A stretch of 38,913 bases of DNA, taken from NCBI GenBank assembly GCA_947426455.1, contig CANEEC010000005.1:1-38913 (forward strand). The letters run 5' to 3'. Every line of letters begins with the position of its first letter. Position 1 is the first letter of the stretch. Positions 2,515 to 28,746 of the stretch are shown one piece after another. The translations under genes and the position numbers were made by a program. Under the pieces are notes generated by a model that was not told the DNA's origin, ran no database searches, and saw only the letters and a list, made by a program, of their open reading frames with translations. The stretch is from an uncultured Clostridia bacterium. Its GTDB lineage: Bacteria > Bacillota > Clostridia > Peptostreptococcales > Anaerovoracaceae.

Positions 2515-3239
2515 ATGATGAAGAACAACAAAGATAATATAATATTATAGGGAGTGAAATCGTCATATATCAAACGGATGATGGACATACAAAAATTCAT
2601 GTTAAATTTGAGGACGAGACTGTTTGGCTTACGCAGGCACAATTATGTGAACTTTATCAAACCAGTAAATCTAATATCAGTGAGCATATTAAACATATTT
2701 TTGAAGAGGAAGAATTGGATGAAGAGTCAGTTGTTCGGAATTTCCGAACAACTGCTGCTGATGGGAAAAACTATAATACAACTTATTATAATCTTGACAT
2801 GATTATTTCTCTTGGATATAGAGTGAAATCCAAGACTGCTACAAATTTCCGCCGTTGGGCTACTGAACGCTTAAAAGAACATATGATAAAAGGCTTTACG
2901 ATGGACGATGAACGGCTGAAAAATCTGGATGATGGTAATTGCTGGAAAAAATTATTGGATCGTATTCGGGATATCCGCTCATCTGAAAAAGTTATGTACC
3001 GACAGGTGCTAGATTTGTATGCAACAAGTGTTGATTATGATCCCAAAAGTAATGAATCCATTGCGTTTTTTAAAATGGTACAAAATAAATTACACTATGC
3101 GGCACATGGACATATAGCAGCAGAAGTTATATACGAGCGTGCGGACGATAGTCGGCCTTTTATGGGATTGAAAAGTTTTTCTGGTGATTTCCTTGCATTG
3201 AAAGATATCAGTATTGGTGCTGTTCATTTACTCGTATAA
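2515..3239 (+). pseudogene. rhuM: RhuM family protein, frameshifted at the start and truncated at the end
   Basis: From 2538 the frame encodes a protein starting IGSEIVIYQTDDGHTKIHV, followed by DETVWLTQAQLCELYQTSK and SVVRNFRTTAADGK. This is the typical N-terminal half of the RhuM (virulence protein) family, which includes a Bro-N-like DNA-binding region. An ATG with a plausible leader lies at 2515 but in another frame, and that frame stops at 2548-2550, so the authentic start appears frameshifted. The other end stops after FMGLKSFSGD plus a short unrelated tail, about 100 residues short of the family's usual length of about 330. RhuM genes are common on islands and beside restriction systems; their biochemical role is uncertain. 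The family assignment is firm, and non-function is likely. Confidence 0.75.
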
Positions 3240-3254
3240 TGTTTTTCCATATTG

Positions 3255-3297
3255 AAAGACCTCACTTGATACTGCCGTTGTACCAAGTGAGGTCTTT
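3255..3297. terminator. Bidirectional hairpin between convergent genes
   Basis: A perfect 14-bp inverted repeat (AAAGACCTCACTTG at 3255-3268, its complement at 3284-3297) with a 15-nt loop lies between the end of the RhuM remnant and the end of the convergent ATPase gene. The stem itself begins with A's and ends with T's, so it can act as a terminator in either direction. Confidence 0.7.
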
Positions 3298-3324
3298 ACT
3301 TGCGCGAATATGCGATTTTTAAAA

Positions 3325-12376: not shown

Positions 12377-13690
12377 TTATTGAGGAAGGCAATAGTGGGT
12401 GTTCTTACCCTTTCCTTCTTGGATAAGCTGACCGTTTTCCATCATTTTTTTTAGTAGCCGTCCGCATGATGACTGACCGATACTAAGCAGTATTTCTATT
12501 TCTTTTCTTGTAATAAATCCCCGTTGCTTTGTCAGAGCAATCACCTTTTCTTCTGGTGAGGCTTTCTCTGGAGTTACCTGCATTTGCCTTGCAGGTTCAG
12601 GCGTTGCATTCAGGTTGGGGAGAATCATCTTAAATGCATTATCAGATGTTTCAATCTGCGGTGTCATCCCAGTTCCCTCATACGCTTCCATGATTTTTGT
12701 AATCCCAGTTCCATAGGCCTCTATCAACTCCAAACGGTAAAATATATTTGCCAGTTTGGTATTCCGACAGACGGAAATACCCATTGTTAAATCTTTTAAG
12801 GATACGCCGCTTACCAGACCACCGATAGAGGTAAATTCAAGTCTGTCTGCGTAAAGGCTGATGAAGGCGCTGGCACGGAATGAATATTCACGGTGTACCA
12901 GAAGATTCAAAAGCGCCTCCCTGACTGCTGTTTCGGGATAATCTCGCCTGTCAATACGATATAACTTATCAAAGGTTGAGTGTGTCTGATTGCGGAAATC
13001 AATAAAGTCATACACTTCATCCATTTGCCGAAACAGGGAGCCGGCGAACTCTTTCCGATCCTTAAACTCACCCTGCGTTGTGCCTTGAAAAACAGCTGCT
13101 TTAATTGTATGCACACATTGATCCGAAAGCAATAATCCCAAGTTCGTATAGACACCATCCTGTGTTACCATTCCCAACGTTTTCATTTGTGCAGAACCGA
13201 ACTTTACATTTCGCTTGGCAAATATTTTTTTTGCACTTTCAAAGGTCAAATTTTGTTCCAAAGACCGCATTTCTTCAAAATGGTCACCGTCTGTTTCCTT
13301 AATCATTCGACGGATTGCCGTATTTGTAGCCGGGACAGAAGAATAACCTTGACGGACATAAACGCCTTCAGGACGCAACCCCTTTTTGGCTATATAATAT
13401 GGCCGTTCTGTTCCCTGCTGAATATCAACCGCGACGATCTTCTTTCCATCTACTGTTACTGTTTCATAGTGAAGAAACATCGTCAGATCCGGTTTAATTG
13501 CGTCTCGAACTATATTGCTAATCTGCAAAGAGGTTTCGTCTGGGTTATCTAATCCTGACACTGTTCCGTCATCCTGAACGCCGATATACAGTTTTCCTCC
13601 CTCACAGTTTGCAAAAGCAATGATTTCTTTTTTTATATCTTCCATTACGATTGCTTTTAGTTCAATCGTTTCGCTTTCTTGAAAAATCAT
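12377..13690 (-). CDS. AlbA_2-domain transcriptional regulator / ATP-binding protein
   Basis: A 437-residue protein. The N-terminal half (ESETIELKA, then FANCEGGKLYIGVQDDG) is the AlbA_2 (divergent AAA_4, Schlafen-like) domain. The middle (REALLNLLVHREYS, then LEFTSIGGLVSGVS) matches the HATPase_c_4 domain that follows it in this family. The C-terminus, including GFITRKEIEILLSIGQSSCG, looks like a winged helix. Such proteins are thought to be transcriptional regulators. The start chosen is the ATG at 13690, with AGGAGG eight bases upstream. It has a near-ideal promoter surrounded by repeated GTAGAATG motifs, suggesting it controls itself. It sits inside a split toxin gene in the opposite orientation, so it arrived as an insertion. 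Confidence 0.85.
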   Translation of the reverse strand: MIFQESETIELKAIVMEDIKKEIIAFANCEGGKLYIGVQDDGTVSGLDNPDETSLQISNIVRDAIKPDLTMFLHYETVTVDGKKIVAVDIQQGTERPYYIAKKGLRPEGVYVRQGYSSVPATNTAIRRMIKETDGDHFEEMRSLEQNLTFESAKKIFAKRNVKFGSAQMKTLGMVTQDGVYTNLGLLLSDQCVHTIKAAVFQGTTQGEFKDRKEFAGSLFRQMDEVYDFIDFRNQTHSTFDKLYRIDRRDYPETAVREALLNLLVHREYSFRASAFISLYADRLEFTSIGGLVSGVSLKDLTMGISVCRNTKLANIFYRLELIEAYGTGITKIMEAYEGTGMTPQIETSDNAFKMILPNLNATPEPARQMQVTPEKASPEEKVIALTKQRGFITRKEIEILLSIGQSSCGRLLKKMMENGQLIQEGKGKNTHYCLPQ

Positions 13691-13719
13691 CCGGCTGCCT
13701 CCTGATTTTATTCTACCCA

Positions 13720-13774
13720 CATTCTACTCATTCTACTCGTTCTTGTCAATCGTTTGGTTAGAATGAGCAGAATG
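13720..13774. repeat. Inverted and direct repeats over the AlbA_2 gene promoter
   Basis: CATTCTACTCATTCTA at 13720-13735 is mirrored by TAGAATGAGCAGAATG at 13759-13774 with one mismatch. Each arm is itself two tandem copies of an ATTCTAC-like unit. The array covers the -10, the spacer and the region just upstream of the -35. Confidence 0.7.
13721..13749 (-). promoter_or_regulatory. Promoter of the AlbA_2 regulator gene
   Basis: On the minus strand: TTGACA (13749-13744), a 17-bp spacer, TAGAAT (13726-13721). It is overlapped by repeats that are probably operator sites. Confidence 0.8.
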
Positions 13775-14201: not shown

Positions 14202-15227
14202 ATGAAAAAATTTTTAGCAATGGTTTTGTGCCTGTGCATGCTGTTTGCAATGGTTGCCTGCGGCGGCGAAGGCGATGGCGCAGGAGATAACGCTGCCGGC
14301 GGAGAGTACAAGCTGGGTATGGGCGTTGTTCTCAACACGGACAGCTCCAAGACAGAACTGGCTCAGGTAGACGCTACGGTAGCCGCTGTCGTTACCGACG
14401 CAGACGGCAAGATCGTTTCCTGCCGCATCGACTGCGTACAGGACAAGATGGAAGTCGTAGGCGGTGCGGTAGATCCTGCGCTGACCTTTAAGACCAAGAT
14501 GGAACTGGGCGACGACTACGGCATGGTAGCCTACGGTGCAGCTATTGCCGAATGGGATGCTCAGGCAAAGGCCTTCGAAGAATACGTTGTAGGTAAGACC
14601 GGCGACGAAGTTAAGGCCATCGAAACTACCACCAACGACCACGGTTATACGGTAGCTGCCGACGAAGCGCTGTATGCCGGCTGCACCATGCAGATTTCCG
14701 AATTCATGGAAGCGGTCGCTAAGGCCTGCGCCGACGAAAAGGGTCAGACCTTTACTGCTGCTGACACATTTACGCTGGGTCTGGCTGCTACTTCCGACGC
14801 CAGCGAATCCACCGCTGCTGCCGACGGCAACGACGCTGTTGTAAAGATGTACAGCGAATACGGCGCTGCTGTTGTGGACGCTGACGGTAAGATTCTGGCC
14901 GCTGTGAACGATGCGACACAGCCGAAGATCAATGTAAACGCTGCCGGAGAAATCGTATCCTCCGAATACAAGGCGACCAAGAGAGAACTGGGCGAAGAGT
15001 ACGGCATGGTCGCTTACGGTGCAGCCATCGCTGAATGGGATGCGCAGTCCGACGCCTTCTCCAAGTACGTTGTGGGCAAGACCGCCGAAGAGGTTCGCGG
15101 CATCGAAACCACGACCAACGATCACGGTTATGCAGTACCCGCCGACGAAACCCTGTATGCCAACTGCACCATGCAGATCACCGGCATGATGGAAGTCATC
15201 GCTCGCGCCGTTGATTACGCTCGCTAA
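14202..15227 (+). CDS. Lipoprotein with two tandem repeats, FMN-binding-like
   Basis: A 341-residue protein. A lipoprotein signal ends in MVAC, with Cys20 as the lipidated residue. Two repeats of about 140 residues follow, each with a VTDADGKI or VVDADGKI strand segment, then ELG(D/E)(D/E)YGMVAYGAAIAEWDAQ, YVVGKT and ETTTNDHGY. The strand pattern recalls FMN_bind domains, and such proteins sit beside rnf and apbE genes in other Clostridia. No flavinylation motif of the SGATxT type is present, so covalent FMN is unlikely. The start ATG at 14202 has AGGAGG nine bases upstream (an open frame from 14091 has none). First gene of the redox operon, facing the outside of the membrane; a role as electron or flavin carrier is inference. 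Confidence 0.75.
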   Translation: MKKFLAMVLCLCMLFAMVACGGEGDGAGDNAAGGEYKLGMGVVLNTDSSKTELAQVDATVAAVVTDADGKIVSCRIDCVQDKMEVVGGAVDPALTFKTKMELGDDYGMVAYGAAIAEWDAQAKAFEEYVVGKTGDEVKAIETTTNDHGYTVAADEALYAGCTMQISEFMEAVAKACADEKGQTFTAADTFTLGLAATSDASESTAAADGNDAVVKMYSEYGAAVVDADGKILAAVNDATQPKINVNAAGEIVSSEYKATKRELGEEYGMVAYGAAIAEWDAQSDAFSKYVVGKTAEEVRGIETTTNDHGYAVPADETLYANCTMQITGMMEVIARAVDYAR

Positions 15228-15257
15228 TTTCAACCGAATCATTTAGGAGACGAGATT

Positions 15258-16310
15258 TTGAAAACCACGAAATCTTGGATCTGCCTTTGTTGTGTGCTGG
15301 GGCTTCTCGTCAGTTTGGCGGGTTGCTCCGGCTCCACAGAGAAGACGGAGCCAATGGGAAAAGCTTTTTTTTCATATTTTGATACGGTCTCCTATGTTTA
15401 CAGCTACGCGGGAGATTCTGAAGAACGCCTGAATGCGTGTGCGGAAGAGGTCTCCCATATTTTAGAAGAATACCATCAACTCTTTGATATTTATCACGAA
15501 TATTCTGGTATCACAAATTTGTGTACGATCAATCGTATGGCCGGCGGCGAACCCTTGCAGGTAGATGAAAAGCTCGTCGACTTTTTGCTGTATGCAAAAG
15601 AACTGCATCGGCAGACGGATGGGGAAATGAACGTGATGATGGGTTCGGTGCTTCGCCTGTGGCACGATTGCCGCGAACAGGCTGCGGAAAATCCGCAAAG
15701 CGCCGCCATTCCCACCGAAGCGGCGCTTTCTGAGGCCGGCAAGCATACGGATATCTCCCTTCTGGAGATCGATGAAGAAAAGGGTACGGTGCGCATTGCC
15801 GATCCTCAGGCCTCCATCGACGTGGGAGCGCTGGGAAAGGGATACGCTACGCAAAAGGCGGCGGAACATTTGCGGCAAATCGGTGCGGAGAGCTACGTGC
15901 TGAATATCGGCGGCAATCTCAGCGTCATCGGGACAAAACCCGACGGATCGTCCTGGAATACCGGAATCCGTGATCCCCACAATCCCGATGGTGAATATGC
16001 ATTGAATTTGAAATTGCAGGATACGTCCTGCGTTACTTCGGGAACGTACGAACGGTACTTTACCGTGGACGGCGTGAGATATCATCACATTATCGATAAG
16101 GATACGCTGATGCCTGCCGGTTATTTTTCTTCTCTGACGGTGGTGACGAAGGACAGCGCCCTGGCGGACGCTCTCTCTACGGCTCTGTTTTGTATGAGTT
16201 ACGAAGAAGGATCGGCGTTGGTGAAATCCATGGACGGCGTGGACGTGCTTTGGATTTTCCCCGACGGAACCATGAAAATGACGCCGGGTTTGGAAAGCCT
16301 GACGATATAA
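15258..16310 (+). CDS. apbE: FAD:protein FMN transferase, lipoprotein form
   Basis: A 350-residue ApbE. A lipoprotein signal ends SLAGC (Cys23). The core shows SIDVGALGKGYA and NIGGN for FAD binding, and HHIIDKDTLMP and DALSTALF, which include the metal-binding residues. ApbE cleaves FAD and attaches FMN by a phosphoester bond to a Thr in target proteins, here most likely RnfG and RnfD encoded just downstream. Translation starts with TTG at 15258 after AGGAG; no ATG fits. The gene follows the lipoprotein by 30 bases. Length and motifs are normal. Confidence 0.93.
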   Translation: MKTTKSWICLCCVLGLLVSLAGCSGSTEKTEPMGKAFFSYFDTVSYVYSYAGDSEERLNACAEEVSHILEEYHQLFDIYHEYSGITNLCTINRMAGGEPLQVDEKLVDFLLYAKELHRQTDGEMNVMMGSVLRLWHDCREQAAENPQSAAIPTEAALSEAGKHTDISLLEIDEEKGTVRIADPQASIDVGALGKGYATQKAAEHLRQIGAESYVLNIGGNLSVIGTKPDGSSWNTGIRDPHNPDGEYALNLKLQDTSCVTSGTYERYFTVDGVRYHHIIDKDTLMPAGYFSSLTVVTKDSALADALSTALFCMSYEEGSALVKSMDGVDVLWIFPDGTMKMTPGLESLTI

Positions 16311-16329
16311 TATATAAATGTAAGAAAAA

Positions 16330-16360
16330 TTGAGAATGATATGATCGACGATCGTATAAT
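16330..16360 (+). promoter_or_regulatory. Possible internal promoter before rnfC
   Basis: TATAAT at 16355-16360 is perfect, but the best -35 (TTGAGA at 16330-16335) is 19 bp away. A GATCG-A-CGATC palindrome lies between them. This is a weak candidate, possibly regulated. Confidence 0.35.
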
Positions 16361-16393
16361 AAAGTGAATTTCCAATAGAGGAGGAACCGACTG

Positions 16394-17728
16394 ATGATTT
16401 TTAAGAAAAACATTTCATCGCTGCACGTGCCTCACAACAAGAATACCGCGGGCAGTGTTCCGGTACCTGTGAGCGCGCCCAGGGAGGTTGTGCTTCCCAT
16501 GAACATGCAGTCCGGACACGAGGCTGTGCCTGTGGTCAACGTGGGTGATCACGTGTATCTGGGGCAGCTAATAGCGAAAGAAGAAGGGAGAGCGTCCTCT
16601 CCGGTTCACGCTTCCGTCTCCGGAACAGTGACGGAAATCGCCCCCATCCGGCTGGCCGGCGACAGGGAGGTTCTGGCCATCCGCATTGAAAACGATGGAA
16701 AGATGGAGCGTCATCCCGACATGAAAGCCCCTGTCGTTACCAATCTGGACGAATTTTTGGAGGCGGTACGCAATAGCGGCGTGGTAGGCCTAGGCGGCGC
16801 AGCCTTCCCGGTATGGGCGAAGCTGGACGCCGTTCGCAATAACGAAATCGAGACGATTCTGGTCAATGGCGCCGAATGTGAGCCTTACATCACCAGCGAC
16901 CACCGCATGATGCTGGACAGAAGCGACCTGGTGGTCAGGGGCGTCAACTTAATGAAAGAACATATGAAGGTGCCCAGAGTGGTTATCGCCATTGAAAACA
17001 ACAAGCAGGACGCCATCGACAAGATGAAGGAACTGTTCCGGGACGATCCTGCGGTGGAGATCTATCCGCTGGAAACCGTCTACCCTCAGGGGGCAAAGCA
17101 GGTGTTGCTGTACAATGTCACCGGTAAGGTGGTCAAGGGCGGTCAGCGCATGGCGTCGCTGGGCGTGCTGATCATCAACGTATCCTCCGTGGCAAAGCTG
17201 GCGGAATACATCGAAACCGGCATGCCGCTGGTGGATCGCATCGTTACCGTGGACGGTTCCGCTGTGAAGGAGCCGAAGAACCTGATCGTTCCCATCGGAA
17301 CGCCCATTCGCCACCTGTTAAACGAAGTGGAAATGAAGGCGGAACCGGGGAAGATTCTCATCGGCGGCCCCATGCTGGGACATGCCATCACGGAATTGGA
17401 CAGCCCTGTCATCAAGGCTACCAATGCGATTTTGGCCTTTGAAGAAAAGGACAGCATCGACTTGGAGGCCAGCTCCTGCATTCGCTGCGGCCGCTGCATG
17501 GCCAACTGCCCGGTGGGGTTAAACGTGGTGGGCATAGAGCGCGCCATGGCTAAGAAGGACGAGGACGAGCGCGCGGCGGCGCTGACCAAGCTGGGATTGA
17601 AGCAGTGCATCGAGTGTGCTTGCTGTTCTTACGTCTGTCCGGCGCATCGCCCCATTTTAGCCAGAAATTTAGAAGGAAAAGAATTCTTGAAAAAATACAA
17701 CGCAGCAAAGAAGGAAGGAGGGAAATAA
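16394..17728 (+). CDS. rnfC: RNF-type complex subunit C
   Basis: A 444-residue peripheral subunit on the cytoplasmic face. The N-terminus has the conserved start and a barrel-sandwich segment. The nucleotide/FMN region shows VGLGGAAFPVWAKL (131-144) and LVNGAECEPYITSDHR. Two 4Fe-4S clusters are bound by Cys362/365/368/372 and Cys405/408/411/415, all present in CxxCxxCxxxCP form. In classical RNF this subunit exchanges electrons with NAD(H). It looks fully competent, in contrast to RnfA and RnfE of the same operon. The start ATG has GAGGAGG about nine bases upstream. The next gene, rnfD, starts three bases after the stop. Confidence 0.93.
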   Translation: MIFKKNISSLHVPHNKNTAGSVPVPVSAPREVVLPMNMQSGHEAVPVVNVGDHVYLGQLIAKEEGRASSPVHASVSGTVTEIAPIRLAGDREVLAIRIENDGKMERHPDMKAPVVTNLDEFLEAVRNSGVVGLGGAAFPVWAKLDAVRNNEIETILVNGAECEPYITSDHRMMLDRSDLVVRGVNLMKEHMKVPRVVIAIENNKQDAIDKMKELFRDDPAVEIYPLETVYPQGAKQVLLYNVTGKVVKGGQRMASLGVLIINVSSVAKLAEYIETGMPLVDRIVTVDGSAVKEPKNLIVPIGTPIRHLLNEVEMKAEPGKILIGGPMLGHAITELDSPVIKATNAILAFEEKDSIDLEASSCIRCGRCMANCPVGLNVVGIERAMAKKDEDERAAALTKLGLKQCIECACCSYVCPAHRPILARNLEGKEFLKKYNAAKKEGGK

Positions 17729-17731
17729 GTC

Positions 17732-18655
17732 ATGAGTCAGCTTCATGTTTCTGCCGCTCCTCACATACATAGCGGCAACGCTACAAACAAGATCATGCGC
17801 GACGTGATTATCGCGCTGCTGCCAGCGTCTGTCGCCTCCGTGGTTCTGTTCGGAATGCAGGCGCTTGTGATCATTGCGGCCTGCGTGGCAAGCGCCGTGG
17901 TGTTTGAGCTGCTCTTTTGTAAACTCGTGAAAAAGCCGTCTACCATCGGCGATCTCAGCGCCGTGGTAACCGGCCTTCTGCTGGCGCTGAACCTGAGTAC
18001 CAACGTACCCGTATGGCAGTGCGTGGTGGGTTCGGCCTTTGCCATCGTGATCGTCAAGTGCCTGTTCGGCGGTCTGGGTCACAATATCGTAAATCCGGCG
18101 ATTGCCGCCCGCGTATTCATGCTGGTGGCCTTCTCTCAGGTGGCCGGAGGCGCCGCCTGTGTTTTGACGGATGCCACCACACAGGCGACGCCCCTGGAGG
18201 TTCTGGCTCCCGGCGCGGAGGAAGCTCCCTCGCTTGCGGAACTGTTTCTGGGCACCCATGGCGGCGCCATCGGTGAAACCTGCGCGCTGGCGTTACTGCT
18301 GGGTTTTGCCTGGCTGCTGATCCGCAAGGTGATTCGCTGGCACGTTCCCGTAGTGTTCATCGGTACGGTGTTCGTCCTGTATCTGGTGACCACCGGCGAT
18401 GTATATTACGCCGCACAGCAGATTCTGGCCGGCGGACTGTTCCTGGGCGCCATTTTTATGGCCACGGATTACGTGACGGCTCCTGTGAATTTCAGGGGCA
18501 GATTGGTATTCGCTTTCGGCTGCGGCCTGATCACCTTTGCGGTTCGCCAGTTCTTCGCGTATCCGGAAGGCGTATCCTTCTCCATTCTGTTCATGAATCT
18601 TTTGACGCCGCTGATCGAAGAGTGGACGGATAAAGAACCTTTGGGAGGTGTGTAA
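17732..18655 (+). CDS. rnfD: RNF-type complex subunit D
   Basis: A 307-residue integral membrane protein of the RnfD/NqrB family, with about nine or ten hydrophobic segments and the signature GGLGHNIVNPAIAARVFM. The site for covalent FMN is in the outward loop TDATTQATPLEVL; Thr153 fits the (S/T)xxAT position used in the family. The start ATG at 17732 follows GGAGGG. It passes electrons across the membrane through bound flavin in known complexes and would be a substrate of the ApbE encoded upstream. Confidence 0.92.
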   Translation: MSQLHVSAAPHIHSGNATNKIMRDVIIALLPASVASVVLFGMQALVIIAACVASAVVFELLFCKLVKKPSTIGDLSAVVTGLLLALNLSTNVPVWQCVVGSAFAIVIVKCLFGGLGHNIVNPAIAARVFMLVAFSQVAGGAACVLTDATTQATPLEVLAPGAEEAPSLAELFLGTHGGAIGETCALALLLGFAWLLIRKVIRWHVPVVFIGTVFVLYLVTTGDVYYAAQQILAGGLFLGAIFMATDYVTAPVNFRGRLVFAFGCGLITFAVRQFFAYPEGVSFSILFMNLLTPLIEEWTDKEPLGGV

Positions 18656-18657
18656 CC

Positions 18658-19911
18658 ATGGCGAAGCAAAACAGCAGTGTGAAATCTCTGGCAATGCCCG
18701 TTGTGGCGGCGCTGGTATTTGCGGTTCTTTTGGCAGGCCTGAACGTGGGTCTGGGACCGATCATAGAAGAAAATCAATCATCGCAGGCATTCGGACCGCT
18801 GATGGAGGTCATGCCCGAGGCAACCGGTTTCGAACTGGTAGAAGTGGAACTTCCCGAGACGGTAGTGGGAGTATATAAAGAAGTCTCCGGTCAGGGTTAC
18901 GCTGTTCGCTGCGCGGCCACGTCTCAGTATTCGGAGCAGCCCATGGAAATGACCATAGGAATCGACGCGGAGGGTAAGATCTGCGGAATAAAGCTGGACG
19001 TCTACACGGAATCCAAGGATTTCGGACTGGAATACCCCCAGACATACGTGGGTCAGGATTCCACTTTGGCGGACGTAGGCGTGGTATCCGGGGTCACCTA
19101 TTCTTCCGTGGCGTTTAAAGGAGCTGTGGAGGACGCCTTTGCCGTTCTGATTGAAAACGGTCTCATCGCAGAGGGCGTCAAGGGAGAGGATCAGCTGTTG
19201 ATGGAATTGCTGCCTCAGCTGCACTCCGGTCTGTTCCTGGGAACGGTAGGACAGTATGAAGAAATGGAAGTTTCCGGCTCTATGGTAAGCGCCATGAAAG
19301 CCGCAAACGGCTCCGGTTTCGCCTATATCATGAAGGAGGGCGACGGCAGCTATCTGGCGGTCTGCAACAACTTCGGCGTGTGCAAGATCTACGACATAGA
19401 GGGCGCGGAGGTGACCGCGGAGCATTCCGCACTGGCGGATGAAGCGAAGGCTCATGCCCAGTCCAATGCGACTTCTTACTTCGATGCGGCCAAGAGCAGA
19501 TTTGAAGCCATGCTGCCGGGAATTTCCGGCGTGACAGAAGTGGAAACCGTGGGCGTATGCAACAGCATCGTGGAAGCCGTGACCTTCCAGTATAACGGCG
19601 CTGTGCACTACGGCTTCTACAGCAGAAGCTACGGCTACGCCAACGAACCCATGGACATCTTCATCGCCATGGACAGCAATGGCGCTATCGCGGCGCAAAC
19701 AGCCAAGGAACTGATTCTTCACGGAGAATATTTCAATGCGTACACGTTGGACGAGCCGTCCTATAAAGCTGGATTTAAGGGTTTGACTGCGGAAACCTGG
19801 TCGCCCGATGTGGCGGCTATCTCGGGAGCGACTATGACTTCCGACGCCATGGCAACGGCTACGGAAGATGCCTTTGCCGCGTTCCAGAGTATTCAGAATG
19901 GAGGGAATTAG
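18658..19911 (+). CDS. rnfG: RNF-type complex subunit G with two FMN-binding domains
   Basis: A 417-residue protein, about twice the usual RnfG length of about 200. One N-terminal transmembrane helix (about residues 11-32) anchors it, with the rest outside. The first FMN_bind domain ends in SGVTYSS (Ser144-Thr147), the second in SGATMTSDAM (Ser389-Thr392). The second is a full ApbE flavinylation motif with Thr392 as the expected FMN site. The first has Val for Ala, so it may or may not be flavinylated. The start ATG at 18658 follows GGAGGTG, two bases after rnfD. The doubled domain suggests a longer flavin wire on the outer face. Confidence 0.9.
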   Translation: MAKQNSSVKSLAMPVVAALVFAVLLAGLNVGLGPIIEENQSSQAFGPLMEVMPEATGFELVEVELPETVVGVYKEVSGQGYAVRCAATSQYSEQPMEMTIGIDAEGKICGIKLDVYTESKDFGLEYPQTYVGQDSTLADVGVVSGVTYSSVAFKGAVEDAFAVLIENGLIAEGVKGEDQLLMELLPQLHSGLFLGTVGQYEEMEVSGSMVSAMKAANGSGFAYIMKEGDGSYLAVCNNFGVCKIYDIEGAEVTAEHSALADEAKAHAQSNATSYFDAAKSRFEAMLPGISGVTEVETVGVCNSIVEAVTFQYNGAVHYGFYSRSYGYANEPMDIFIAMDSNGAIAAQTAKELILHGEYFNAYTLDEPSYKAGFKGLTAETWSPDVAAISGATMTSDAMATATEDAFAAFQSIQNGGN

Positions 19912-19913
19912 AA

Positions 19914-20507
19914 ATGACGGAAAAGACCAGCATTTTACAAAAAGATCCTCTGCTGCTTCTGCTTTTGGGAGCATGTCCTGCTCTGGCAGCTACCGCTGAT
20001 GTTCGCGCCGCTTTGGGTATGGGCATCATGGTGCTGGCGGTTCTGCTGCTTTCCGGCATCATCGCCTTTGCGCTGCGGGGTCGCCTGTCTCAGGGAGCGG
20101 GTTTTGCCACCTGCGTGATCATCGTGGCCGGCTGCGCGTCGGTGATGCAGATGCTGTTAGCTGCATTTTTGCCTGCGTTTTATAACCAATTGGGAATTTA
20201 CGCCGCCATCGTGGCGGTCATCGCGCTGACCGGCCGTTTCGCGGGCGGGGTGAAGGAGGCGGAAAGCATGGGTCAGGCGGTGAAAACGGCGCTGACCATC
20301 GGCCTGTATCTCCTGGTGGTCATGGTGATCGTGGCTGCCGTTCGCGAGGTATTGGGTTTCGCCTCCATCGCCGGCGTATCCCTTGACTTTTTCGAAAGCT
20401 ATAAAATCTCCGCCATGGGGAAGGCCCCCGGCGCTTACATTGCACTCGCTATGGCAGCCGCAGTAGTGGCCGCCTGCGGATCCAAAAAAGAAAAGGAGGG
20501 GAAATAA
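19914..20507 (+). CDS. rnfE: RNF-type complex subunit E, one cluster cysteine missing
   Basis: A 197-residue membrane protein with about six helices. The first conserved motif is present (LLGACPALAAT, Cys21). The second, usually VTNC(x)3GR, reads AVIALTGR here, with no cysteine in reach. In RNF, RnfA and RnfE together hold a [2Fe-2S] cluster inside the membrane, two cysteines from each; here only one of RnfE's remains. The start ATG has GGAGGG upstream and follows rnfG by two bases. The family is firm; the loss of the ligand is seen directly. Confidence 0.88.
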   Translation: MTEKTSILQKDPLLLLLLGACPALAATADVRAALGMGIMVLAVLLLSGIIAFALRGRLSQGAGFATCVIIVAGCASVMQMLLAAFLPAFYNQLGIYAAIVAVIALTGRFAGGVKEAESMGQAVKTALTIGLYLLVVMVIVAAVREVLGFASIAGVSLDFFESYKISAMGKAPGAYIALAMAAAVVAACGSKKEKEGK

Positions 20508-20510
20508 ACC

Positions 20511-21044
20511 ATGAACCAATCCATGTTTCTCGTCCTGTTGGCCGGAATTTTGGCCGACAACTATGCGATTCAGAACTTTTTGGGAGTGGAGTCTCTTCTG
20601 GGAAACGGCAGCGGCGCGAAGAAGGCGCTGAAATTAGGCGGTTTGACGGCGGCAGTGATGATTCCCTCCGCGGCCATCGCCTGGCCGTTACAGAACTATG
20701 TGTTAAACAATGCGCCCTACCTGCAGACCCTGGTCTTTGTGGCGATCATTCTCCTTGTGGCCGCTGTGGTTTCCAAGGCGGCGAAGCGTCCCTTCGATGA
20801 AGGCTTCGTCCTGCTGACAGTGAACGGCGCGGCTTTGGGACTGTGCCTGACAACTGCCCAGATGGGCTTTGGAGAAGCCATGATGACCGCCATCGGTGCG
20901 GGCGTGGGGTTTGCCCTGGCCATGGCTGTGTTCGCTTCTCTGCGGGAGCGTGTAGAGGACGACAAAGTACCCGCGGCCTTTCGCGGCTTGCCGGTGAGCC
21001 TTCTGATCGCGGCCATGATGTCGCTGGTTCTGTTTGCTTTCTGA
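20511..21044 (+). CDS. rnfA: RNF-type complex subunit A, both cluster cysteines missing
   Basis: A 177-residue membrane protein with six helices, aligned to RnfA over its length (ADNYAIQNFLG, then FGEAMMTAIGAGVGFALAM and ASLRERVEDDKVPAAFRGLP). Where RnfA has FLGxCP this protein has FLGVES, and where it has TNCAVLG it has VNGAALG. Both cysteine ligands of the intramembrane [2Fe-2S] cluster are thus replaced. The fold and conserved tail are kept, so the gene is under selection but without the metal. A GGAGGG site precedes the ATG. The next gene overlaps its stop by one base. No rnfB follows. Confidence 0.88.
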   Translation: MNQSMFLVLLAGILADNYAIQNFLGVESLLGNGSGAKKALKLGGLTAAVMIPSAAIAWPLQNYVLNNAPYLQTLVFVAIILLVAAVVSKAAKRPFDEGFVLLTVNGAALGLCLTTAQMGFGEAMMTAIGAGVGFALAMAVFASLRERVEDDKVPAAFRGLPVSLLIAAMMSLVLFAF

Positions 21045-21394
21045 TGAAAAAGCGAGACGGCATTCTCATCGGCGGATTGTTGCTGATTGCCCTGGTTTTG
21101 TTTCTCGTGATGCAGCGGGGAGCACAGCCGGGGGGATCGGTGATCGTTCGGGTGGACGGTGAGATCATAGAAGAAATTTCCCTGGAGGAGGAGGGAACGT
21201 ATTCCTTAAACGGCGGGACGAATCTCCTTCGCATCGAAAATGGCCAGGCGTGGCTTTTGGAGGCGGACTGTCCCGACAAGCTGTGCGTTCGTCAGGGAAG
21301 GATTTACAGAACGGGTGAGGTCATTACCTGTTTGCCCAATAAATTGACCGTTACGGTCACGGGAGCGGAAGAATCGGTAGATGTGGTGATGTAG
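21044..21394 (+). CDS. NusG domain II-containing membrane-anchored protein
   Basis: A 116-residue protein: one N-terminal transmembrane helix (about residues 7-23), then a small outward beta domain of the NusG_II (DUF1312) type, with ADCPDKLCVRQGRI and ITCLPNKLTVTV. Two cysteines in CPDKLC and one in TCLPN are typical. It has nothing to do with transcription elongation in this form. Such proteins are usually found with apbE, FMN_bind proteins and the gene type that follows, so a part in an extracytosolic redox system is likely. The ATG overlaps the rnfA stop (ATGA). Confidence 0.85.
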   Translation: MKKRDGILIGGLLLIALVLFLVMQRGAQPGGSVIVRVDGEIIEEISLEEEGTYSLNGGTNLLRIENGQAWLLEADCPDKLCVRQGRIYRTGEVITCLPNKLTVTVTGAEESVDVVM

Positions 21395-21407
21395 GGGAGA
21401 AGATGAC

Positions 21408-21899
21408 ATGAAGACTTCTAAAATTTCATTTTTGGCCTTGTCCATCGCCTTAGCCATGATTCTTTCCTTTGTGGAAAGCCAGATTCCGGTGTTCATCTCC
21501 ATTCCGGGAATCAAGATGGGACTTCCCAACATCGTGATCGTATTTTTGTTGTACAAAGTGGGAGCGAAAGAGGCGGCCGCCGTCAGCATGGTTCGCGTTA
21601 TTTTGGTAGGATTTTTGTTCGGTTCTATGATGAGCATGGCATACAGCCTGGCAGGCGCGGCGCTGAGCTTTTGCGGCATGGCGCTGCTGAAAAAGACCGA
21701 CTGGTTTTCCGTGACGGCGGTCAGCGTGACGGGGGGCGTTCTCCACAATGTAGGACAGATTTTAACAGCCTGTTTCGTTACGGAGACGGCGCAGCTTCTG
21801 TATTACCTGCCTGTGCTGATGATAAGCGGCGTGATTTCCGGCATCGTCATCGGCGTGGCTGGAGCCATGATGGTCAAGCGCGTTCCCGGCAGCTTCTGA
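21408..21899 (+). CDS. Heptaprenyl diphosphate synthase component I / Gx transporter-type membrane protein
   Basis: A 163-residue hydrophobic protein with about five helices, including SIPGIKMGLPNIVIVFLLY near residues 32-50, characteristic of the Hpre_diP_synt_I family, which resembles ECF transporter substrate-binding (S) components. In many Clostridia it is paired with the NusG_II protein as here. Roles proposed for relatives are transport of a flavin or quinone precursor, or help in quinone synthesis; the sequence does not decide. A GGGGAGA site precedes the ATG, 13 bases after the previous gene. It is the last gene of the redox operon; the converging XRE gene ends two bases beyond. Confidence 0.8.
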   Translation: MKTSKISFLALSIALAMILSFVESQIPVFISIPGIKMGLPNIVIVFLLYKVGAKEAAAVSMVRVILVGFLFGSMMSMAYSLAGAALSFCGMALLKKTDWFSVTAVSVTGGVLHNVGQILTACFVTETAQLLYYLPVLMISGVISGIVIGVAGAMMVKRVPGSF

Positions 21900-22377: not shown

Positions 22378-22520
22378 AACATATAAGGATAGATTACGCA
22401 CACCAGACCGACATGTTCGAAGGGATAACCGGCATGCGGTTATTTTGCATTGAATTGACTTTCATCCAAGCTTTACAACAATCGAGTTCGATTTGGACGG
22501 AAAGGGAGGATACGAAAATA

Positions 22521-23783
22521 TTGGAGAATGTACGGTATTCTTTGTATGTATCTACATTAGGGAAATTTTCCGTTTCCGCAAGCGCTGCGGAAGCCGGCGC
22601 CGCTCTCGCCCAGGGTTCCCCCGGGGATGTGAAATTGCGTCGGCGCAGCTTTTTCCAGTACCTCTGTGTGTTTCATCACCGTGCGGTCAGTCAGGAGGAG
22701 GTAATCGACGCGATCTTTGACTCCGAGGACGGAGTCGGCGATCCGGTCAATACCTTGAAAAACACCCTGTACCGAACACGCCGGCTGTTGGAGGAACTGG
22801 GTTTTTCTGATGCAAAAAAATTATTGCTTTATCGCGACGGCTTTTTTTCCTGGTCTCCGGACATCCAAATCACTTTAGATATCGAAGAATTTGACGAGCT
22901 TTACAATCGCTTTTACGAAGCGGAACATCTATCGGATCATCTGGATTCGGCTCTGAAGGCGCTGTCCCTTTACAATGGGGAATTTCTCATGAATTCGGCC
23001 AACAGCCTCTGGGCCATGTCTCTGCGCACCTATTATCACGGCAAATATATGAAGCTGGCGAAAGAAGTGGCCGAAATCCTGTACGAACAGAACAGATGGA
23101 AGGACAGCATGAGAATCTGTCAGATGGTTGCCGCTGAAGAACCGTTTAATGAAGAAAACCAGCTTCTGCTGATGAAGCTGCTTCACGCCTCGGGAATGAC
23201 CCAACAGGCGGTTCATCACTACGAGAAAATACGAAAGATGTTCATGGATCAGCTGGGCGTCAGCCCGTCTCCGGATCTTTCCGACTTTTACAAGATGTTG
23301 ATACATAGCAAAGAAAACAGGGAATTCAATCTCACGGTGATTCGCGATCAGATGTTAGAGGGAGATTCCACGGATGGGGCGTATTATTGCGATTATTCGG
23401 TATTTCAGAGCATCTACCGGCTGATTGCCCGCTCCATGCCGAGAAACGGGCAGGCCATTCAGCTGGTGATGACCACATTAAACGACGTTTCGGGGGAACT
23501 GCTTTCGCCAAAGCGGTGCGGCGTTCCCATGGAAGAATTATATAAAGCGATTCATCAGGCGCTGCGTAACGGCGATGTATTTACCCAGTACAGCCGCGAT
23601 CAATATCTGATTTTGCTGATGTCCTCCAGCTATGAAAACGCCGCGGCTGCCATGGAGCGCGTCTTGCGGCTTTTCCGCATGCTTGAAAATGGTAAAATCC
23701 GAGTGCAGTACAGCATTTTGCCCGTATTGGCGCCCAGAGTTGTGGAAAAACCCGTGGGTTGGTCGGCGATAAAGAAAAGGTAG
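22521..23783 (+). CDS. SARP-like (BTAD) transcriptional regulator with degenerate GGDEF-like C-terminus
   Basis: A protein of about 420 residues from the TTG at 22521, which follows GGGAGG (the open frame from 22413 has no ribosome site). A winged-helix domain at about 10-100 (KLRRRSFFQYLCVFHHRAVS, then NTLKNTLYRTRRLLEELG) is followed by the helical bacterial transcriptional activator domain (about 120-270, ending MFMDQLGVSPSPDLSDFYK). The last 130 residues resemble a diguanylate cyclase fold, but the GGDEF site reads YSRDQYLIL, so no catalysis is expected. SARP-type proteins bind direct repeats with an 11-bp period; two such repeats occur just downstream (23822 and 25274). It is the likely activator of the pilus genes. 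Confidence 0.85.
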   Translation: MENVRYSLYVSTLGKFSVSASAAEAGAALAQGSPGDVKLRRRSFFQYLCVFHHRAVSQEEVIDAIFDSEDGVGDPVNTLKNTLYRTRRLLEELGFSDAKKLLLYRDGFFSWSPDIQITLDIEEFDELYNRFYEAEHLSDHLDSALKALSLYNGEFLMNSANSLWAMSLRTYYHGKYMKLAKEVAEILYEQNRWKDSMRICQMVAAEEPFNEENQLLLMKLLHASGMTQQAVHHYEKIRKMFMDQLGVSPSPDLSDFYKMLIHSKENREFNLTVIRDQMLEGDSTDGAYYCDYSVFQSIYRLIARSMPRNGQAIQLVMTTLNDVSGELLSPKRCGVPMEELYKAIHQALRNGDVFTQYSRDQYLILLMSSSYENAAAAMERVLRLFRMLENGKIRVQYSILPVLAPRVVEKPVGWSAIKKR

Positions 23784-24336: not shown

Positions 24337-24638
24337 AGCAGGAAAATCTGACAAAACTGAAACGAGTGGATCTTTTGGAGCTTCTGATCGCTCAGGGAAA
24401 GGAAATCGACCGGCTGACCGAAGAACTGGCCAGAGCGCAGGAGGAACTTTCACAGCGGCGTCTGGTTTTGGATAACGCCGGTTCCTTAGCCGAGGCAGCG
24501 CTGCGGATCAACGGTGTGTTTGAGGCCGCGCAGGCGGCGGCGGATCAGTATCTGGAAAACATCCGGATCATGGAATGGGAAGCCAGAGCGCGCAATGAAA
24601 TGTCGGAGGATAGACGGAGAGATGAGGTTAAAGCGTAA
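24333..24638 (+). CDS. Small coiled-coil protein
   Basis: A 101-residue protein starting at the ATG of an ATGA overlap with the preceding gene. Residues about 10-50 form a heptad-rich coiled coil (KRVDLLELLIAQGKEIDRLT, then ELARAQEELSQRR). A second helix follows with AALRINGVFEAAQAAADQYL. No membrane segment. The signal peptidase gene starts 17 bases before its end, so the three genes are translationally coupled. The function is unknown; it may be an adaptor of the surface assembly system. Confidence 0.78.
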   Translation: MKQENLTKLKRVDLLELLIAQGKEIDRLTEELARAQEELSQRRLVLDNAGSLAEAALRINGVFEAAQAAADQYLENIRIMEWEARARNEMSEDRRRDEVKA

Positions 24639-25230
24639 CCAAACGCCTGTGGCGTCGCCAAGCGTCGAACAGCTGGAACAACAACTGAAAAACGAACGGC
24701 ATCGCATCCGTTATCTGTACGCTCTCCGAACGACGGTCTATACCATATTAGCGGTGGCGGCGCTGGCAATTTTGGTGGCCACGCTTTGGCTGCCGGTGCT
24801 GCAGATCTACGGAACGTCCATGTCTCCCACCCTGACGGAGGGAGAGCTGGTGCTGGCTGTAAAGACTAAGAATTTTGAGCAGGGACAGCTGATCGCCTTT
24901 TATTACAACAACAAAATATTGGTGAAGCGGGTGATTGCCGGCCCGGGCAGTTGGGTGGATATCGACGATGAGGGTACGGTGTACGTGGATCGGGTTGCTA
25001 TCGATGAGCCGTATCTGGTGGAAAAGGACTACGGTATGTGCGATATCGATTTGCCGTGTCAGGTGCCGGATGGACAGTATTTTGTGCTGGGAGATCACCG
25101 ATCCGTTTCCATGGATTCCCGCAGTTCCGCCATCGGCTGCGTATCTATTGACAACGTGGTGGGTCGGTTGGTGGTGCGCATTTGGCCGTTCAATCGGATT
25201 GACCTTATCAACAGCAATAGCATAGAATAA
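24622..25230 (+). CDS. lepB: Signal peptidase I
   Basis: A 202-residue type I signal peptidase: an N-terminal charged region, one transmembrane helix (about 38-57), then the catalytic domain outside. The nucleophile Ser66 is in YGTSMSPTL, the general base Lys102 in LVKRVIAGPG, and the conserved GDHRSVSMDSR follows. It removes signal peptides from exported proteins. Position between the coiled-coil gene and the pilins suggests a dedicated enzyme for pilus subunits, as known in other Gram-positive pilus loci. The start ATG at 24622 has GGAG upstream and overlaps the preceding gene. Confidence 0.92.
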   Translation: MRLKRNQTPVASPSVEQLEQQLKNERHRIRYLYALRTTVYTILAVAALAILVATLWLPVLQIYGTSMSPTLTEGELVLAVKTKNFEQGQLIAFYYNNKILVKRVIAGPGSWVDIDDEGTVYVDRVAIDEPYLVEKDYGMCDIDLPCQVPDGQYFVLGDHRSVSMDSRSSAIGCVSIDNVVGRLVVRIWPFNRIDLINSNSIE

Positions 25231-25306: not shown

Positions 25307-25353
25307 AAACTTGTAAATAGGAATGGCAGGAGTAAAGAAAGGAGGGAATGCAG

Positions 25354-28300
25354 ATGAAACAGAGTTTTCTGGCTAAGCTGCGGCGTCTGATGGATCGACG
25401 CGAGATTAAAAGAAAATTCACACTGGTGACTAATATAATCTGTTGCATGATCGTATTCTGCATTACCTACGTCCTGATTTCTCCCGTCGTTACGCAGGAA
25501 TGGCAAGCCGTGTGCGGTATGGAAGAGCACACTCACACCGAGGAATGCTACGCGGAGGTTCCCGTAGAAGACGAAGAGGAAAGCGGTGACGAAGGTGGTG
25601 CACTGGCAGAAGAAGCCGCTACCACAGGTTCCGCTGTCAGCGTTTCTGAGAAGTCCTCTTCCCGTAAAACCAAAAAGGTTCTGATTTGTACTTTAGAAGA
25701 ACACACTCATTCGGAAAGCTGCTACTATGCTGCAAAACCGGAGGAGGAAGAAGAATATATCTGCGGCCTGAACGAACACACGCATACGAGCGAATGCTAT
25801 TTTGAAAACGGCGAGCTGAAATGCACCCAGCAGGAACATCTGCACACCGCGGCGTGTCTGGCCTCCGGAGAAAATCCCGTCGACGAGACTGTGGAGGAAA
25901 TGTCCGGCGGAATCGTCCCCATCGACCGCGAATTCACTTACGAAAATGAATATATCACGGCGACGGTTGCCATTACCGGTAAAATCCGGTTGCCTGAAAC
26001 CATAGAGACTGCGGCTGCGGAGGAGACGACAGCCGACGCGGCGGACAGCGATGATGCGGTTGCCGTAAACGATACAGCGGATGTAAACGATGCGCCTGAT
26101 GTAAACGATGCAGAGACACAGGGCGATACCGCTGCGGAAGAAAATACCGGCCTGTATCTGGATGTAGTCGAGTCGGAAGACATGGACGACTACAGCGAAT
26201 ACGAGGAGATGGCGGAAGAAGACGGCGACGTTATGCTGCTGCAGGTGTTCGACTACAGCCTGAAAATGAACGGCGAAAAGATCAGCCTGAAAAACTGTAC
26301 GGTGGATGCGACCATAACGGCGAAACCGGAATTGCAGGAAATGATGGACGCGCCGCAGGCAGCCATGTATGCTGCGGAAGAAAGCGAATCCGCAGGCGAG
26401 TCCGTCAATAACTACATGGAGCTTACCACCTACACGGAAGAGAAGAACGTCATGGCATACGCGGTGGTAGAGGCTGCCAATCCCAGCTTTACGGTTCAGT
26501 ATTACGCCAATATCCAGCGGGCGGTAAAAACCGACATAGGGGCTACCGTTTCGGACCCCAATGCTCTGGCTCGCCAAAATAAATTGCTTCTGATCAATAC
26601 GGACAACGGAAGTACAGCTGCCAACAGCAATAAAGGCGGCAAGATGCCGAAAAACGGCACCGGCGTTGCGACATCGCCCAACGATAACCCGCTTTCGTAT
26701 TTGGAACTTGTCGGCAATCGCATCAAGACGCAGGAAACGCTGACGGAGATTTATAAGAGTGAAGAACTCACCTACCAGAGGGCGCCCGGCCTGATGTATT
26801 TCAACATCGTATTGTCAAATACCGAAAGCGAATATCAGCTGAAGGAAATCTGGGTATTAAAACCCGGCAGAAATGCCGACAGCATCAAGCGGGATGATTG
26901 GGAGATACACGAATATACGACTACGACCCGATTCACCAATCGGCCGGAGACGGCGGCCAAGGACAGCAACTATATCTTAATCGACGATAACGCGGTGATC
27001 CGCCTGGTCTACAATCCGGAAGAAACCACGGAAAACATGCCCGCTCACTTCTACGATTACGACATCACCGGCGGTAAGTTATACCAGACTTCCGCATTGA
27101 GTGGCTCCTATTATCTTCCCAATGAATTGGATACAGCGCTTTCCGAGTGGGGAAACGTCTATCTCAGATCATCGGAAGAGGGCATCAACAGCAACAGCAA
27201 TTATCAAGGTTCCGGTTCCCGATTGGCTTTCGGTAACGCCAATATGGGCACCAAATACGGTAAGGCAACCTGGGACGGGAATGCGCTGAATACAGCGAAT
27301 CGCGCAACCACCGGAGGAAAAGACAGCTTCCGGTTTTCCACCTTCGGACTGGTGACCGGCCTCTCCGGCGGCAAGCTGCAATACAATACCGGCGTGGACG
27401 CTCCCAAGCTGTTTAACGAAGGAAGCGCCGCAGGTAAGACCAATTATGACAATAATGAATATTCTCTGGATTTTCAGCGGGTGGGAGATACCTATACGCT
27501 GTCCGCGGTAAGGGGCGCGCAAACGGCGTCAAAGCTGGATGAATTCCGGCACCCGCAATCGAAGCACAACCACATTTGGACAAATGACTTCTGGCCCATG
27601 GATTCGGCTCCCAGTTGGGGAGCGTATGACAGCGTTGCGGGCGTATACCACGATCCAAAGATAGGAAGCTCGGCCAAAACCAGCAAGGTTCACCGGCAGC
27701 TTTCCTCCGGCGAGAACTGGGATACGATAGCCGAAAACGACGACGCAAAGGATCACAATTCCTACTTCGGTATGCAGTACAGCGTAACCTTCGATTTGAG
27801 CTCCAGCTATATTGGCCCTCTGGAATATTACTTCTTCGGCGACGACGATATGTGGGTATTCCTGAACGATCAGCTGGTATGCGATATCGGCGGCGTTCAC
27901 AGCGCCGTGGGCGAATATGTCAATCTCTGGGATTACATCGACAGGAGTCAGCTGCTGGACGAAAAAGGAAATCCCATCAAGGAGCCGAAGAAAGATGCCA
28001 ATGGCGATCCGATTCCCTTGAAGGATAAAAACGGAAATCCGGTGTTCGATGCGGATGGAAATCCGGAATATGAAATGACGGATAAGGTGCAGACGTATAC
28101 GCTTTCGTTCTTCTATACTGAGCGGGGCGCCTCCGGTTCTACCTGCTGGATGCAGTTCACACTGCCTACGGTGGCCGGCATCGACCTGGACAGCGTCCTG
28201 GACGAACAGCTGTCGGAAAACACCGGATCCCTGAGCATTGAAAAGAAGCTGCAGGGCGTGGAAAATACCGAATGGTTTGAATTCGATCTGCAATTTGAAG

Positions 28301-28746
28301 GAGCGGATGATAACTATGAACCGGATTACCGGCTACGAGACGCCAACGGCAATCTGGTGGATAACGAAGAACTCAGTCAGAACAACGACTATGTCATCGC
28401 CGACGGATCGCGTTTCCGCATCCGAGCCGGAGATGTGCTGGTCATCCGCAACCTGCCGAAGGATGCCACCTTCCAGGTGACGGAGCTCAACTGCGACGGT
28501 TATCAACCCGTGGTCACCATCGACGGAGCGGTTCAGGATACGGCTCCGGTTGCCAGAGGTACCATCACCGTTGATAAGCGCACACAGGTGGTTTTCACCA
28601 ATGTGGCCTCGTATGAACTGCCTGCCACCGGCGGCAGCGGTACTGCAAATTGGTATATCATGGGAGCGGCGCTGTGCATGATGGCGTTGGCTCTGGGATA
28701 TAAAAAAGTCAAAGTTGCGCGGGAAGAAGGGGGGACGGATATGTAA
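25354..28746 (+). CDS. LPxTG-anchored pilus tip adhesin with fibro-slime (PA14-like) domain
   Basis: About 1,130 residues. A basic N-terminus and a hydrophobic segment (about 22-45) direct export. Four C-x4-HxH-x3-C motifs follow, at Cys54-65, 112-123, 137-148 and 157-168, in an acidic Ser/Thr-rich stretch. A large central part contains SVTFDLSSSYIGPLEYYFFG and FGDDDMWVFLND, a fibro-slime/PA14-type domain, interrupted by a GNP-repeat loop. Near the end is a CnaB-like domain (FQVTELNCDGYQPV), then LPATG, a membrane helix and a basic tail for sortase anchoring. The ATG at 25354 fits GGAGGG better than that at 25348. First gene of the pilus set; size and layout fit a tip adhesin. Confidence 0.88.
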   Translation: MKQSFLAKLRRLMDRREIKRKFTLVTNIICCMIVFCITYVLISPVVTQEWQAVCGMEEHTHTEECYAEVPVEDEEESGDEGGALAEEAATTGSAVSVSEKSSSRKTKKVLICTLEEHTHSESCYYAAKPEEEEEYICGLNEHTHTSECYFENGELKCTQQEHLHTAACLASGENPVDETVEEMSGGIVPIDREFTYENEYITATVAITGKIRLPETIETAAAEETTADAADSDDAVAVNDTADVNDAPDVNDAETQGDTAAEENTGLYLDVVESEDMDDYSEYEEMAEEDGDVMLLQVFDYSLKMNGEKISLKNCTVDATITAKPELQEMMDAPQAAMYAAEESESAGESVNNYMELTTYTEEKNVMAYAVVEAANPSFTVQYYANIQRAVKTDIGATVSDPNALARQNKLLLINTDNGSTAANSNKGGKMPKNGTGVATSPNDNPLSYLELVGNRIKTQETLTEIYKSEELTYQRAPGLMYFNIVLSNTESEYQLKEIWVLKPGRNADSIKRDDWEIHEYTTTTRFTNRPETAAKDSNYILIDDNAVIRLVYNPEETTENMPAHFYDYDITGGKLYQTSALSGSYYLPNELDTALSEWGNVYLRSSEEGINSNSNYQGSGSRLAFGNANMGTKYGKATWDGNALNTANRATTGGKDSFRFSTFGLVTGLSGGKLQYNTGVDAPKLFNEGSAAGKTNYDNNEYSLDFQRVGDTYTLSAVRGAQTASKLDEFRHPQSKHNHIWTNDFWPMDSAPSWGAYDSVAGVYHDPKIGSSAKTSKVHRQLSSGENWDTIAENDDAKDHNSYFGMQYSVTFDLSSSYIGPLEYYFFGDDDMWVFLNDQLVCDIGGVHSAVGEYVNLWDYIDRSQLLDEKGNPIKEPKKDANGDPIPLKDKNGNPVFDADGNPEYEMTDKVQTYTLSFFYTERGASGSTCWMQFTLPTVAGIDLDSVLDEQLSENTGSLSIEKKLQGVENTEWFEFDLQFEGADDNYEPDYRLRDANGNLVDNEELSQNNDYVIADGSRFRIRAGDVLVIRNLPKDATFQVTELNCDGYQPVVTIDGAVQDTAPVARGTITVDKRTQVVFTNVASYELPATGGSGTANWYIMGAALCMMALALGYKKVKVAREEGGTDM

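Follow-up and report, generated by a model that had tools for sequence, protein, structure and literature searches.

An RNF-derived operon of Clostridia without rnfB and with lost intramembrane [2Fe-2S] ligands: a probable outward NADH dehydrogenase

In the RNF complex, electrons pass from ferredoxin via RnfB, the intramembrane [2Fe-2S] cluster of RnfA and RnfE, RnfG and RnfD to RnfC and finally NAD+, and the cluster gates the movement of Na+ (PMC11889175, PMC12174285). Here we describe an operon from an uncultured Clostridia bacterium of the Anaerovoracaceae that has kept five of the RNF subunits and lost both RnfB and this cluster. The operon occupies positions 14202-21899 on the forward strand of a 38,913-nucleotide stretch, hereafter the window (CANEEC010000005.1, contig C5 of the 1.89-Mb, 96%-complete assembly GCA_947426455.1). 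To judge from its sequence, it probably encodes an RNF-derived, five-subunit (C-D-G-E-A) membrane NADH (reduced nicotinamide adenine dinucleotide) dehydrogenase, which would have lost the ferredoxin/ion-pumping arm and would transfer electrons one way, outward. The initial annotation of this DNA had read rnfC, D, G, E and A in the usual order, followed by a NusG_II gene and an Hpre_diP_synt_I gene and with rnfB missing. Pfam and NCBIfam agree with that order and find no rnfB among the operon genes, but the true start lies earlier than rnfC, as a lipoprotein gene and apbE precede it, giving lipoprotein-apbE-rnfC-D-G-E-A-eetA-eetB in full.

By alignment, the intramembrane [2Fe-2S] site of RnfA and RnfE is destroyed in the window operon. 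The two Rnf-Nqr proteins of the window, whose best NCBIfam fits are RnfE (19914-20507) and then RnfA (20511-21044), were aligned to solved RNF chains and their cysteines mapped in the numbering of A. woodii, where the ligands are RnfA C25/C113 and RnfE C25/C108 (PMC11889175). The window RnfE keeps C25 (as C21) and has A104 in place of C108, while RnfA has lost both ligands (C25 to E27, C113 to G106), so that the motifs had been read correctly at the outset and three of the four cluster cysteines are gone. Six further independent loci from at least three genera show the same losses, which rules out a sequencing error or a lone odd genome. They comprise G119, G149 and G150 from the same genus and, from outside it, L077, L078 (Candidatus Limivicinus) and L082 (Oscillospiraceae), the last three having the complete lipoprotein-apbE-C-D-G-E-A-eetA-eetB layout without rnfB. 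Listed as window, G150, G119, G149, L077, L078 and L082, the replacements are E/D/D/D/S/S/E at RnfA C25, G/G/G/G/S/S/S at RnfA C113 and A/V/A/A/L/L/P at RnfE C108; RnfE C25 is still cysteine in five of the seven and threonine in G119 and G149, leaving one of four ligands in five loci and none in two. Because each of the 67 distinct canonical RnfA/RnfE pairs in the retrieved loci has the cysteines, and all four ligand columns are cysteine in 28/28 aligned canonical operons, this loss is far outside chance. Other cysteines could conceivably ligate the cluster at the same place; however, no cysteine column is common to all seven variants in RnfA or RnfE and the RnfE proteins of G119 and G149 contain no cysteine at all, which rules such substitutes out. 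Seeming motif losses at three other loci were artefacts of pattern matching: L100 and L111 both read FMGICP, and the L131 copy of L021 keeps the cysteine as SLGVCP. L131 itself (G126:C58, 4939-9072, rnfC-D-G-E-A, the contig ending after rnfA) is very divergent and shows the opposite pattern, in that its RnfA/RnfE ligands are kept and the glycine-rich NADH/flavin mononucleotide (FMN) motif of RnfC (...LLNFGRDRTP...) and the flavinylation site of RnfD (...TSGDTPLEL...) look degraded. A separate peculiarity of canonical RnfE in this family (e.g. L005, 4196-4870) is a Cys-rich C-terminal tail of the C-x2-C-P-x4-C type, seen in about 16 of the 28 operons and possibly an extra metal site.

The entry subunit is missing as consistently as the cluster, since rnfB is absent from all seven variant operons. 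A genome search for rnfB or a second rnf cluster found a complete canonical rnfCDGEAB operon with all ligands on another contig (G000:C11:1376-6462), and the sole good rnfB match in the genome lies inside it; an rnfB encoded elsewhere and serving the window operon is thereby ruled out. The route from ferredoxin through RnfB and the [2Fe-2S] cluster, which the initial annotation considered closed, is thus closed throughout the group (no rnfB, at least three of four ligands gone in each, no substitute cysteine column). Since the genome also encodes a full canonical RNF, the variant copy is free to diverge.

Residue conservation shows the loss to be limited to one arm of the complex. When residues nearly invariant across the 28 canonical operons are taken as reference, the variants keep 91-97% of them in RnfC and 93-96% in RnfD, and 43-66% in RnfE and 44-56% in RnfA. 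The window RnfC (16394-17728) retains 59 of 65 and fits the RnfC family (TIGR01945, 419 bits vs 44 bits for nqrA), so it is not of the cofactor-free NqrA type. All eight cysteines of its two 4Fe-4S motifs are kept in the seven variants, as is the glycine-rich NADH/FMN region; the eight cysteines first ascribed to the window protein are those of the motifs, out of ten in total. Its RnfD (17732-18655; TIGR01946, 303 bits; best solved match C. tetanomorphum RnfD, E 1.5e-86) keeps 96%, and all variants have the flavinylation-site threonine for covalent FMN (T153 in DATTQAT); to judge from their positions, the Asn/Asp residues of the riboflavin site are retained as well. RnfG (18658-19911) had been described as intact, which is true of its FMN sites, but the protein is doubled: its length of 417 aa is due to two FMN_bind domains (PF04205 in two stretches), whose threonines T147 (SGVT) and T392 (SGAT) are invariant across the seven loci. 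Such conservation of RnfC, RnfD and the RnfG FMN sites is as expected if NADH electrons flow outward.

RnfA and RnfE, despite their divergence, appear to be working proteins. By a counting method, the ratio of non-synonymous to synonymous substitution rates (dN/dS) for the variant RnfE and RnfA proteins lies at 0.08-0.13 when close pairs are compared and at 0.11-0.26 for wider ones, where dS is near saturation. Between the window genome and G150, canonical RnfE/RnfA give 0.022/0.008 vs 0.25/0.18 for the variant copies; between G119 and G149 the contrast is small (E 0.098 vs 0.067, A 0.127 vs 0.184). Purifying selection that is weaker than on the canonical copies (window/G150) argues for functional subunits whose role has been relaxed in at least part of the clade, and pseudogene decay is unlikely.

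A maximum-likelihood tree of RnfC and RnfD places the seven variants in one clade (100/100) inside Clostridia RNF, at a great distance from the canonical copies that reside in their own genomes. Neighbouring canonical operons in the tree include L114 and L128, which read C-D-G-E-A-B-eetA-eetB, and therefore a simple origin by rnfB loss is available. On this simple reading, an eetA-eetB-linked RNF operon would have lost rnfB and then the cluster, an order of steps that we infer, and gained the second FMN_bind domain of RnfG and the lipoprotein. The distribution is thin. Four of five genomes of the genus have the variant operon (the fifth, G049, is without), as do 4/350 genomes in the family scan and 1/391 in the class scan, and none was found in the families to which G520 and G438, the nearest canonical relatives, belong; the family and class scans and those of the relatives' families were keyed on the doubled RnfG and would miss a variant with a single-domain RnfG. 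Several of the records come from deer, cattle and poultry, and the operon has presumably spread between gut lineages by transfer. These data also bear on whether the variant RnfC, RnfD and RnfG might assemble with canonical RnfA, RnfE and RnfB from the other locus, altering the output of the ordinary RNF, with the variant RnfA/E competing for assembly or being minor. All four genus genomes with the variant operon do carry a canonical rnf operon too, and canonical RnfB could feed electrons to canonical RnfA/E. However, the retention of RnfA/E under purifying selection in every variant operon suggests that their partners are the subunits encoded beside them, and the distance of the variant RnfC/D clade from the resident copy marks a different lineage, so that we regard such a mixed complex as unlikely, albeit the least unlikely of the alternatives.

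Because RnfB and the cluster are gone, RnfC, RnfD and RnfG would be left as the sole electron carriers, from which it would follow that NADH feeds extracytosolic flavins in one direction. NADH would reduce the FMN of RnfC, whose 4Fe-4S clusters would pass electrons to the riboflavin and FMN of RnfD; from there electrons would cross to both FMNs of RnfG and exit to extracytosolic acceptors, probably via the PplA-like lipoprotein of the operon. RnfA and RnfE would persist as a scaffold without redox activity, on which RnfG and RnfD dock, and the flow would be uncoupled from redox-driven Na+ pumping at these subunits. The ordinary RNF pump of the cell is encoded at a separate locus. The lipoprotein (14202-15227; ATG at 14202, GGAGG ribosome-binding site, lipobox LFAMVACG), with two FMN_bind-like repeats, heads the operon in six of the seven loci, the contig ending before it in the seventh, and is a plausible next carrier, a candidate two-FMN extracytosolic shuttle. 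PplA of Listeria is a lipoprotein with two FMN. The sequence profile of the window lipoprotein has no significant similarity to RnfG. It matches 2kzx (E 8e-5), which belongs to the FMN_bind family (PF04205; PMC4348036) and whose ISGAT motif comes to lie over AGCT in the alignment. Flavin supply is encoded alongside, by apbE (15258-16310; PF02424, 224 bits), whose product is an FAD (flavin adenine dinucleotide):protein FMN transferase, by an eetA-like membrane protein gene with a NusG_II domain (21044-21394, start about 21044; PF07009, 101 bits) and by an eetB-like gene for an FAD-export protein of the ECF-S (S-component of energy-coupling factor transporters) type (21408-21899; Hpre_diP_synt_I, PF07456, 131 bits). 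FMN attachment by ApbE takes place outside, and the FAD that this flavinylation needs is exported by EetB, as in L. monocytogenes (PMC9973259); the products of the window genes could attach FMN and supply FAD outside in the same way. A second ApbE is encoded elsewhere in the genome.

Several points weigh against this proposal. RnfG and RnfD have no direct contact in solved RNF/NQR (PMC10979944), so that outward transfer from RnfD to RnfG is an extrapolation. The lipoprotein stays below the Pfam thresholds, has AGCT/NCT where FMN_bind has [S/T]GA[S/T], and as a model gives no significant Foldseek match in the PDB. The genome gave no FMN_bind matches beyond the two RnfGs, and no terminal reductase was found in it. 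In G150 (L059), apbE is split into two frames (3043-4094) and eetA/eetB do not follow rnfA (after 8786); either the assembly is wrong here or part of the operon has been lost. More generally, we infer the direction of flow, the acceptor and the cofactor content from sequence. The direction could in principle be the reverse, with reduced extracytosolic donors feeding RnfG/RnfD and then RnfC for NAD+ reduction, given that the forward reaction of RNF normally ends with NAD+ being reduced by RnfC, whose sites are all kept. Gut donors such as sulfide, reduced flavins and Fe(II) are, however, mostly too oxidising for NAD+ without a driving gradient (general bioenergetics), and the ion-coupled arm that could supply the drive is lost, which makes electron import improbable.

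A further question is whether RnfA and RnfE, with the cluster gone, still move ions. The window RnfA model (pLDDT, the predicted local distance difference test score, a moderate 66) has six helices and finds RnfA and NqrE as its best PDB matches, the top Foldseek hit being RnfA 9eri_A (TM 0.67). Its loop between transmembrane helices 3 and 4 is 7 residues shorter; 3-7 residues are missing there in all variant RnfA, and the loop is whole in 27/28 canonical ones. Among the Na+-path residues mutated in A. woodii, RnfA T111, RnfE N107 and RnfE L103 are replaced in all seven variants and RnfA T110 in six, whereas RnfA N112 and RnfE V106 are unchanged throughout the seven. The R67-E115 pair, which is G-G in the window and V-C, K-D, K-D, R-E, R-E and K-E in the other variants, is thus either retained or lost jointly. 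The earlier suggestion of RnfA/E as ion-channel parts is therefore weakened, with T110, T111 and N107 altered and the window pair G-G, although five relatives retain the pair or have conservative replacements for it. It could be carried further by supposing that RnfA/E move Na+ by alternating access, driven by redox changes of the RnfG/RnfD flavins and not by the [2Fe-2S] cluster. The kept RnfA fold, the invariant N112 and V106 and the five preserved pairs are consistent with such a transporter; the two glycines of the window at R67/E115 and the replacement of T110, T111, N107 and L103 in most or all variants are not, and we consider it as improbable as electron import. If true, the complex would pass electrons from NADH to extracytosolic acceptors and conserve energy even though its iron-sulfur site is dead, and this would separate ion transport from cluster chemistry in the RNF/NQR enzyme family. 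That the operon is simply a non-functional RNF copy on its way to loss is very improbable: the strong divergence of RnfA/E and the split apbE and missing eetAB of G150 would fit, but the rnf frames are intact in seven loci, dN/dS is low in every gene of the variant operon, and the accessory genes and doubled RnfG are conserved across genera.

Elsewhere in the window, a Schlafen/AlbA_2 protein with a RecG-like C-terminal domain is encoded upstream of the operon on the opposite strand (12377-13720). A gene for a large surface protein of 1132 aa (25348-28746), which contains a DUF7601 domain and has a sorting signal resembling LPATG at its C-terminus, adjoins genes for signal peptidase I (24514-25230) and a BTAD regulator (22413-23783).

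Compared with RNF, the window operon has homologous C, D, G, E and A in canonical order with RnfC, RnfD and the FMN sites kept, but is without RnfB, has destroyed [2Fe-2S] ligands in RnfA/E, a doubled RnfG and altered Na+-path residues; it should be filed as RNF-derived rather than as RNF. It fits neither definition of the survey by Meheust et al., in which an RNF cluster requires RnfB and an Nqr/Rnf-like system requires RnfD fused to an NqrF-type domain (PMC8238504), as its RnfD is a single PF03116 domain with no fused NqrF-type NAD domain (PF00175); surveys based on rnfB would not classify it. The two-subunit Nqr/Rnf-like systems resemble it in having RnfD and RnfG homologues and a proposed one-way transfer from NAD(P)H to extracytosolic flavins (PMC8238504, PMC10979944). 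They differ in that their RnfD carries a fused NqrF-type NAD domain and lacks the flavinylation site, and in that RnfC, RnfE and RnfA are absent, whereas the window operon has its NADH site in RnfC, still encodes all five subunits and retains the flavinylation site of RnfD. With the Gram-positive extracellular electron transfer locus (FLEET; in Listeria ApbE/FmnB, PplA, EetA, EetB and Ndh2) it shares ApbE, EetA/EetB and a two-FMN-like lipoprotein, but its membrane step is RNF-derived; no genes for an Ndh2-type dehydrogenase or demethylmenaquinone were found among the genes of 14202-21899, the stretch that this search covered. In the open full texts (the literature covered here, as distinct from subscription papers, most preprints and survey supplementary tables), no rnfB-less RnfCDGEA operon with lost ligands was found.

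In this operon evolution has in effect dissected a respiratory ion pump, removing ferredoxin entry and the buried [2Fe-2S] cluster and keeping five subunits, and the sequence suggests that an ion pump has turned into a one-way electron exporter. It offers a direct test case for the pumping model with cluster-gated Na+ movement, and for the question whether RnfC, RnfD and RnfG suffice to carry electrons outward by themselves. In ecological terms, the operon hints that gut Clostridia dispose of NADH by a flavin-based route which rnfB-based surveys would leave unclassified. Na+-NQR offers the closing comparison: it likewise descends from an rnf operon after rnfB loss, arising from a duplicated operon in which RnfC then lost its cofactors and NqrF was recruited (Reyes-Prieto et al., PMC4014512; descent also PMC12174285). 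No NqrF (FAD/2Fe-2S NADH dehydrogenase) is encoded in the window operon, and the other six share its gene set and leave no room for one between the rnf genes. In NQR, NqrF was added, the RnfA/E (NqrE/D) cluster stayed and the RnfC cofactors disappeared, and the window operon has met the opposite fate; loss of rnfB after duplication can thus lead elsewhere than to NQR.

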